A DNA stretch of 64,000 nt, taken from the NCBI GenBank assembly GCA_035550055.1, contig DASZRO010000047.1, positions 1-64,000 on the forward strand, read 5' to 3'. Source of the DNA: Mycobacteriales bacterium (GTDB taxonomy: Bacteria > Actinomycetota > Actinomycetes > JAFAQI01). Within the stretch, counting starts at the first letter, position 1. Every line of letters starts with the position of its first letter. The notes under the pieces are model-generated. The model was given only the letters and a program-made list of their open reading frames with translations, was not told where the DNA came from and did no database searches. Position numbers and translations under genes: made by a program. This document shows positions 47,519 through 48,652 of the stretch, piece after piece.

Positions 47519-47560
47519 TATGTGACATGTGTGCAGCTATAGCGACACGTATGTCACATA
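47519..47560. repeat. 42-bp palindromic repeat, copy 1
   Basis: TATGTGACAT (47519-47528) pairs exactly with ATGTCACATA (47551-47560). The interior is also symmetric (GTG/CAC and GCTA/TAGC), so the whole unit is one imperfect palindrome centred between 47539 and 47540. It starts 8 bp after the ptsI stop and 91 bp before the AbiEi-like gene. It matches copy 2 (48606-48647) in 38 of 42 bases in the same orientation; the last 19 bases (GCGACACGTATGTCACATA) are identical up to one base at its start region. Confidence 0.85.
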
Positions 47561-47650
47561 CGAGCAGCTGACGCTCCACACCTCCTGACGCTGTCCACCG
47601 ATCGGCTCATGCGTCACCGTGGCGCAGGGCGGAGCGGACAACTTGGGCCC

Positions 47651-48592
47651 ATGACGCACTCACTGCAATCTTTCGCTGCCCGGCAGGACGGCATCGTCAC
47701 CCGTGGCCAGGCCCTCGAGGAGCTGACGCTGGGCCAGCTCCGACATCGCCTGGCTCGCCGTTGGACGCCGGTGCTTCCCGGCGTCTACGCGACCTTCACT
47801 GGCCGCCTGTCGTTGCGGCAGCGCTGCCGGGCGGCGTTGCTGTACGCCGGCTCGTCGGCACAGCTCGCCGACGTGACGGCGCTTGCCGCACACGGCGTGC
47901 GGTTCCTGCCGACACAGTCGGCCATCCACCTCCTGATTCCGGCTACCGAGCATCGGATGAGCAAAGGATCTGTCGTCGTACGCCGTACCCACCGCCTCCC
48001 CGAACCGGTGTACCTCAACGGCCTTCCGTACTGCCCGACAGAGCGAGCGCTGGTCGAGGCGGCAGCCCGGATCGGAAGTCAACAGACGGCGAACGCGATC
48101 GTCGCGGACGCCGTCCAACGCCGTCTGGCTCGCGAGCAAGCGCTGCTTGACGAGCTGGCACACCTCGCTGGTCGGGGCGCCGGCATCGCTCGACGCGCCG
48201 TGATCGATGTCGTCAAGGGCGCCCGTTCAGCGCCCGAGATCGACTTCCTCGAGCTTTGCCGCCGCGACAAGGGGCTGCCCGAGCCGCTCATCAACCCGCT
48301 GCTCGAGCTGCCCGATGGACGTCGGGTCAGTCCCGATGCCCTCTTCCGGGACGCTCCCCTGGTCCACGAGACGAACGGTCGCGCCTTCCACAGCGGCGAG
48401 TATGCGTTCGAGTCGATGCAGGCCCGCCACGATGCGATGACTTCCGCCGGCCTCACCGTGCTTCACAACTCGCCGCGCCGACTGCGACGTGAAGGCGCCG
48501 CAGTGCTGAACGAGGTATTGGCCTGCTACCGACGACTCGAGGGCCAGCCGTTGCCGCCCGGCGTACGTCTTCTGCGCCGCGGCGCGGCCTGA
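47651..48592 (+). CDS. AbiEi-like / DUF559-type protein with endonuclease-fold C-terminus
   Basis: A 313-residue protein of the large actinobacterial family annotated as type IV antitoxin AbiEi-like. The N-terminus is a winged-helix-like part (LQSFAARQDGIVTRGQALEELTLGQLRHRLARRWTPVLPGVYA). The C-terminus (from residue about 195) resembles DUF559/Vsr-type PD-(D/E)xK folds: SAPEIDFLELCR, then RVSPDALFRDAPLVHETNGRAFH, where Asp and Glu could form the nuclease core. No AbiEii-type toxin gene is adjacent, so an antitoxin role is doubtful. ATG 47651 is chosen as the first start giving the family-like N-terminus. The gene stands alone between two copies of a 42-bp palindrome, which may make it a small mobile unit. 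Confidence 0.7.
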   Translation: MTHSLQSFAARQDGIVTRGQALEELTLGQLRHRLARRWTPVLPGVYATFTGRLSLRQRCRAALLYAGSSAQLADVTALAAHGVRFLPTQSAIHLLIPATEHRMSKGSVVVRRTHRLPEPVYLNGLPYCPTERALVEAAARIGSQQTANAIVADAVQRRLAREQALLDELAHLAGRGAGIARRAVIDVVKGARSAPEIDFLELCRRDKGLPEPLINPLLELPDGRRVSPDALFRDAPLVHETNGRAFHSGEYAFESMQARHDAMTSAGLTVLHNSPRRLRREGAAVLNEVLACYRRLEGQPLPPGVRLLRRGAA

Positions 48593-48600
48593 ATGCGATC

Positions 48601-48652
48601 CGCCCTATGTGACATCGGTGCCGCTATGGCGACACGTATGTCACATAGGGCG
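48601..48652. repeat. 52-bp palindromic repeat, copy 2
   Basis: CGCCCTATGTGACAT (48601-48615) is the exact reverse complement of ATGTCACATAGGGCG (48638-48652), a 15-bp stem with a 22-base partly self-complementary loop. The core 48606-48647 repeats copy 1. It begins 8 bp after the AbiEi-like stop. Its right arm supplies the last Met codon and the TGA stop of the convergent DHA2 transporter gene, so it may also work as a terminator. Confidence 0.85.

Follow-up and report, generated by a model that had tools for sequence, protein, structure and literature searches.

The palindrome pair and its gene

The window analysed here is a 64,000-nt stretch from the genome of a soil actinobacterium of the class Actinomycetes (G000), in which one gene lies between a PTS enzyme I-type gene (ptsI) and a convergent MFS gene, both assigned by Pfam, and is enclosed by two long palindromes (Table 1). 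These are direct repeats of each other with 38 of 42 positions identical (91% over 44 nt), and shuffles of the window gave an expectation of zero such matches, which bears out an earlier sequence-only reading of a same-orientation pair around a single gene. Copy 1 is laid out as TATGTGACAT GTGTGCAGC TATA GCGACACGT ATGTCACATA, and both copies look, from their letters, like decayed forms of a perfect TATGTGACAT ACGTGTCGC TATA GCGACACGT ATGTCACATA. Relative to dinucleotide shuffles, folding z-scores on the two strands were -3.5 and -2.9 for copy 1 and -4.7 and -6.9 for copy 2. For the spacings, first given as 8 bp on both sides, 7 nt separate the ptsI stop from copy 1, while the gene's own stop is followed by 8 nt to the extended stem of copy 2 (13 nt to its 42-mer), which overlaps the stop codon of the MFS gene. 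Copy 1 is followed after 90 nt by the gene's ATG, with an alternative in-frame ATG upstream at 47609 possible. No T-run follows the window's hairpins, the number of intrinsic terminator calls being zero, and an Rfam search of the palindromes yielded no convincing match, so that a known RNA was rejected. Among the adjoining genes, ptsI and the MFS gene, there is no AbiEii/DUF1814 toxin gene.

Table 1. Coordinates of the features at the palindrome-bracketed locus of the window
Feature	Position	Strand	Description and basis
Palindrome copy 1	47519..47560	+	42 nt, imperfect; left inner arm diverged from ACGTGTCGC
AbiEi-like/PD-(D/E)xK-fold gene	47651..48592	+	313 aa; ORF, PADLOC AbiEi, AF2 model, Foldseek
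N-terminal AbiEi-like region	47660..48160	+	residues 4-170; PADLOC profile, 6y8q/1zel folds; putative DNA binding, by analogy
C-terminal Vsr/homing-endonuclease-like domain	48227..48544	+	about residues 193-298, limits by the authors' estimate; E196, D229, E240
Palindrome copy 2	48601..48652	+	52-nt imperfect palindrome; 42-nt core 48606-48647

The encoded protein had no Pfam match above cut-off and no match in NCBIfam, and its N-terminal region was recognised by the AbiEi profiles of PADLOC (E 1.9e-11). An AlphaFold2 model built from an 11-sequence alignment (mean pLDDT 90.9) gave as its best PDB match in Foldseek the AbiEi antitoxin of Streptococcus agalactiae (6y8q, E 7.7e-5), the next AbiEi-type fold being Rv2827c (1zel, E 4.9e-4). 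The C-terminus, for which a nuclease fold had been proposed from the letters, finds support for that fold in the catalytic domain of I-Bth0305I (3r3p; TM 0.81 by target, rmsd 2.2, probability 1.00, with a Foldseek E of only 0.03). By predicted fold, the protein thus matches an AbiEi-type DNA-binding half joined to a nuclease half resembling a homing endonuclease. E196 and D229 are identical in 68/68 aligned family members and E240 in 65/68, which suggests a working active site; the HD pair H260/D261, as read from the family alignment, is not conserved across the wider family, in which E196 and D229 are invariant. Matches to the AbiEi-like family occurred in 112 of 198 sampled Actinomycetes genomes, with at most 16 per genome. 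Gene calls were heuristic, and many of the genomes are draft MAGs, several of the relatives being Frankiaceae/Frankiales MAGs.

Matched palindromes around AbiEi-like genes

In the tree, 11 AbiEi homologues make up clade I; the flanks of ten were read by eye, and the truncated L050 was scored instead. Each of the ten is flanked left and right by related palindromic repeats, whose sequence varies from copy to copy. Aside from reading by eye, bracketing was scored, with no motif assumed, by comparing a gene's left flank with its right flank for local similarity, a test in which the window locus scored 38. Within the window's family, 18 of 28 AbiEi-like genes exceeded the 99th percentile (26.5) of 404 control genes, a conservative comparison since one of the controls is itself an actual AbiEi gene. 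Among 21 such genes from other families of the class, 13 lay above the 99th percentile (33.8) of 236 same-region controls (Mann-Whitney p = 1.6e-7), and more strong cases were found elsewhere in the class, several congener copies of one genome scoring 33 to 55. Pooled, a score of at least 26 was reached by 51/64 copies versus 107/4,032 flank pairs taken from different copies, the latter being inflated by orthologous neighbourhoods, so that this comparison too is conservative. The association of the gene family with flanking palindromes is strong, and our first reading, that no such link exists because most arrays lack an AbiEi neighbour, fell on this motif-free comparison. About a fifth of the AbiEi-like copies have no matched pair, which counts against a REPtron-like reading, that is, a nuclease gene bracketed and accompanied by its own mobile repeat. 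One copy in G002 (C14) had a low flank score of 17, yet by eye has palindromes of one set on both sides.

Two further observations concern individual loci. An array-bracketed homologue in G003 (C75; L044, L123:4994-5912) runs across two frames, which suggests a frameshifted pseudogene. In three genera (L034, L039 and L040), an AbiEi gene occupies what is apparently one and the same gene interval, with different palindromes in each, and the gene is inverted in G003 relative to G000.

The palindromes have a common anatomy. Across 49 extracted from gene flanks, the arms differ and the centre converges on GCYATAGC; most members of the family have this centre, the rest of the sequence being specific to a gene copy or to a group, since close relatives can have a common type (for example L222 and L227). 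Those of G108 are near-perfect 50-mers in which changes in one arm are matched in the other. AbiEi and Rv2827c have each been reported to bind paired 23-bp inverted repeats lying a few bases apart, and AbiEi does not bind the repeats of Rv2827c or vice versa (PMC7319586). Because these repeats are close in size and geometry to the palindromes, we infer by analogy that the palindrome may be the protein's own double binding site.

Dispersal, pairing and presence or absence

The window's exact pattern was found twice in G000, together with about two diverged copies elsewhere, and the small size of this set counts against the REPtron-like reading. In the same-genus genome G001, palindromes of the window's type make up about 50 units in some 25 arrays, each unit consisting of a 9-bp box, ATGTSACAT, and a 23-bp interior with a period of 32, often as three units in fixed order; related sets in G002 and G003 repeat every 30-31 bp. 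Among the AbiEi copies, none enclosed by the arrays of G001 was found, the ptsI locus being missing from that assembly, and these unbracketed arrays likewise count against the reading. Most window-type arrays have no AbiEi neighbour. Among 74 arrays with both neighbours seen, 26 lay between convergent, 40 between codirectional and 8 between divergent genes, an enrichment of convergent neighbours over the 87 convergent among 507 neighbouring gene pairs. Where an array adjoins a gene's 3′ end, the distance was at most 60 nt in 57 of 66 cases, with a median of 14 nt. Several palindromes of the family bear TGA stops on both strands.

Three candidates were discarded on these and related data. A CRISPR-like array was considered for the 30-32-bp periods of G001-G003 and rejected, the interiors being palindromic variants and not unique spacers. 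A unique mobile cassette confined to the window locus does not agree with a scattered repeat and a large gene family, and plasmid or phage cargo does not agree with hits in 1/72,556 plasmids and 0/50,697 phages, the one plasmid record looking chromosomal. In IMG/VR, the window pattern was matched twice, in apparently unrelated contigs; at L003:1067-1110, an IMG/VR contig has a perfect palindrome whose 10-nt outer arms are those of the window's pair, the low-GC surroundings being unrelated and the match probably due to chance. Separately, the 30-32-bp tandem arrays of G001-G003 (L101, L108, L123, L140) include three-unit arrays in G001 that keep their unit order, as if an array of about 105 bp moves or is copied whole.

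The most informative genomes hold more than one palindrome set. Two dispersed sets, with boxes ATGTGGCAT and ATGTGCCAT, are found in G002; the genome also has two AbiEi genes, each of which is enclosed by one of these sets. G000 also has two AbiEi genes with different palindromes, and that of the second (C22) was counted at about 40 positions in G000, whereas none of 11 relatives had more than one copy. The palindrome of the G108 copy was counted 14 times in G108 and not once in 11 other genomes of its family. In the Rhodococcus ruber MSA14 record NZ_CP145323.1, the gene (WP_029540190.1) has matched palindromes, and three further full palindromes all lie between convergent genes; no other plasmid record contained this palindrome, the single hit in 72,556 being the gene-bearing record. 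That record is labelled plasmid pmega_4 (L329, L330), but with its serS, map, pks13 and emb-type genes it resembles a mislabelled piece of chromosome. Such specificity counts alone are no proof of a link, since a species-specific repeat will in any case be restricted to few genomes, and the pairing of genes with motifs inside one genome is the stronger point. Scattered copies were counted for a handful of sets, and the counts cover these rather than every bracketed gene; in each set so counted, the palindrome also lay at the ends of other genes of its genome. The alternative raised in the sequence-only reading, a repeat family scattered through the genome, holds as well: the palindromes are dispersed at unrelated gene ends, and they are linked to the AbiEi-like gene family.

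Empty sites were found for both the single palindrome and the complete unit. In G108, the 3′ end of glgA (glycogen synthase) lies inside a palindrome, versus an ordinary 3′ end in four congeners, and an SDR gene is followed by palindrome, AbiEi gene and palindrome, versus no AbiEi gene after the SDR gene in four congeners, where no palindrome of the G108 type was seen within 120 nt past the SDR stop. The direction of gain or loss was inferred from the majority state. Another short tandem repeat, GCTGCCGCGACCTAAGACACGTTCC, adjoins glgA in two congeners (L249:1551-1700 in G108, and L281). At the counterparts of the window locus, the order is ptsI, palindromes, hydrolase, palindromes and MFS gene in G002 and ptsI, hydrolase and MFS gene in G005, and because both have a hydrolase there, the AbiEi gene of G000 may be a newcomer. 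The hydrolase at the AbiEi position is of the alpha/beta type (L058, L060, L140), and in G002 it is also array-bracketed, by two different sets.

A candidate REPtron-like unit and its relation to known systems

We consider it rather probable, with real room for doubt, that the window locus is a copy of a REPtron-like unit in which a solitary AbiEi-nuclease gene is bracketed by the palindrome that its protein recognises. This reading draws on the matching of flanks, copy specificity, dispersal that follows the gene and gain at particular sites, and equally on a constant centre with varying arms, the combination of an AbiEi with a homing-endonuclease fold, and the binding of paired repeats by AbiEi proteins. 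The proposal of a hairpin, nuclease-fold gene and hairpin resembling REP-based mobile units gains support from matched copy-specific palindromes, motif-to-gene specificity and empty sites. Briefly, the N-terminal half would, by analogy, bind the palindrome with approximately one inverted arm per protomer, and the nuclease half, with its putative activity, would cut at or near the constant centre, perhaps when this is extruded as a cruciform or hairpin. Repair of the break or strand transfer would then copy the palindrome to new sites, and at times the gene would be copied together with its two palindromes. Gene ends may be favoured sites, since an insertion would be tolerated there. Handling of the palindromes by the nuclease itself is presumed.

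One rather unlikely alternative is that of a selfish homing gene copied into a cut solo palindrome, which would leave a palindrome on each side and make the spread of solo copies secondary. It would account for the fold match to the I-Bth0305I catalytic domain, for flanking copies that are matched, direct or inverted, and for the zf-HC2/glpD interval, which has palindromes in G001 and an AbiEi gene in G005 and G006. At that site, however, G001 and G005 have palindromes of different sequence, many loci have several units per side, and in the two sets counted there are 14 to about 40 solo copies against one gene per motif. Equally improbable is an operator function, in which the AbiEi-like protein binds the palindromes to regulate its own gene and the scattered copies serve as extra sites in regulation, termination or chromosome organisation; the fold of the nuclease half would then be inactive or have another role. 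AbiEi antitoxins are indeed autoregulated via paired inverted repeats upstream of their own gene (PMC7319586), and copy 1 lies upstream of the start codon; but bracketed loci have a second copy downstream, the scattered copies lie mainly at 3′ ends or between convergent genes and not at promoters, and E196 and D229 are invariant. Least plausible are bidirectional terminators that spread independently and among which AbiEi-like genes merely settle, since the stable hairpins, the proximity to 3′ ends and the enrichment of convergent pairs, all expected of terminators, come without a U-tract, other genes of the same regions are seldom bracketed, two sets in one genome are each paired with their own AbiEi gene, and the centre is conserved in sequence beyond what pairing alone would call for.

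Dispersed palindromes are common in bacteria, and the HUH tyrosine transposases of REPtrons are, to our knowledge, the enzyme family linked with their spread. Here a protein family that is unrelated to these, widespread and for the most part unannotated is tied to gene-end palindromes, and the gene-to-motif pairs could be taken directly into binding and cleavage assays. The REPtron-like reading, if true, would also point to a function for the solitary AbiEi-like genes that are at present classed as antitoxins or hypothetical proteins. No account of a link between AbiEi/DUF559 proteins and palindromes in Actinobacteria was found in the open full-text literature, subscription papers lying outside it, and within these bounds the enzyme-repeat partnership looks undescribed.

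The nearest relatives of the two protein halves are instructive. As in the AbiE antitoxins AbiEi and Rv2827c, the N-terminal fold is of the AbiEi type and presumably binds paired inverted repeats of about 23 bp; unlike in AbiE systems, no toxin gene adjoins the copy in the window, the C-terminal half resembles a nuclease, and palindromes occur also downstream of the gene and elsewhere in the genome. The predicted nuclease half is likened by fold to I-Bth0305I, a member of the EDxHD family with a Vsr-like fold that dimerises on a target of nearly 60 bp (PMC3943268), and differs from it in that no intron or intein was seen at the locus, the HD pair is not a family feature and an AbiEi-type domain is fused to it.

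REP/RAYT systems are defined by an HUH enzyme and by palindromes tagged with GTAG/CGTC (PMC6006769, PMC3733652). Neither mark was found here: the protein between the palindromes matches neither Y1_Tnp nor any other Pfam family above cut-off and by predicted fold matches AbiEi and a homing endonuclease, not an HUH enzyme, and inspection of the 49 extracted palindromes showed neither GTAG nor CGTC as an end tag common to them. Thus, unlike REPtrons, these loci encode an AbiEi protein with a PD-(D/E)xK/Vsr-like domain rather than an HUH tyrosine enzyme, and unlike REPs, the palindromes are about 40-55 nt long, near-symmetric and centred on GCYATAGC. The arrangement that marks a REPtron, a gene bracketed by its own scattered repeat, is present nonetheless, the scatter having been counted in few sets. 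For the broader proposal, that a class-wide AbiEi-nuclease family is a second, independent kind of REPtron behind a large part of the gene-end palindromes of Actinomycetes, every protein recognising, cutting and spreading the palindrome of its own, we see the chances as evenly balanced. As in the REPtrons formed by TnpAREP/RAYT and REP sequences, the gene is bracketed by its own palindromes, further copies lie mostly at gene ends, and the system is chromosomal, being almost absent from plasmids and phages in the sets searched.
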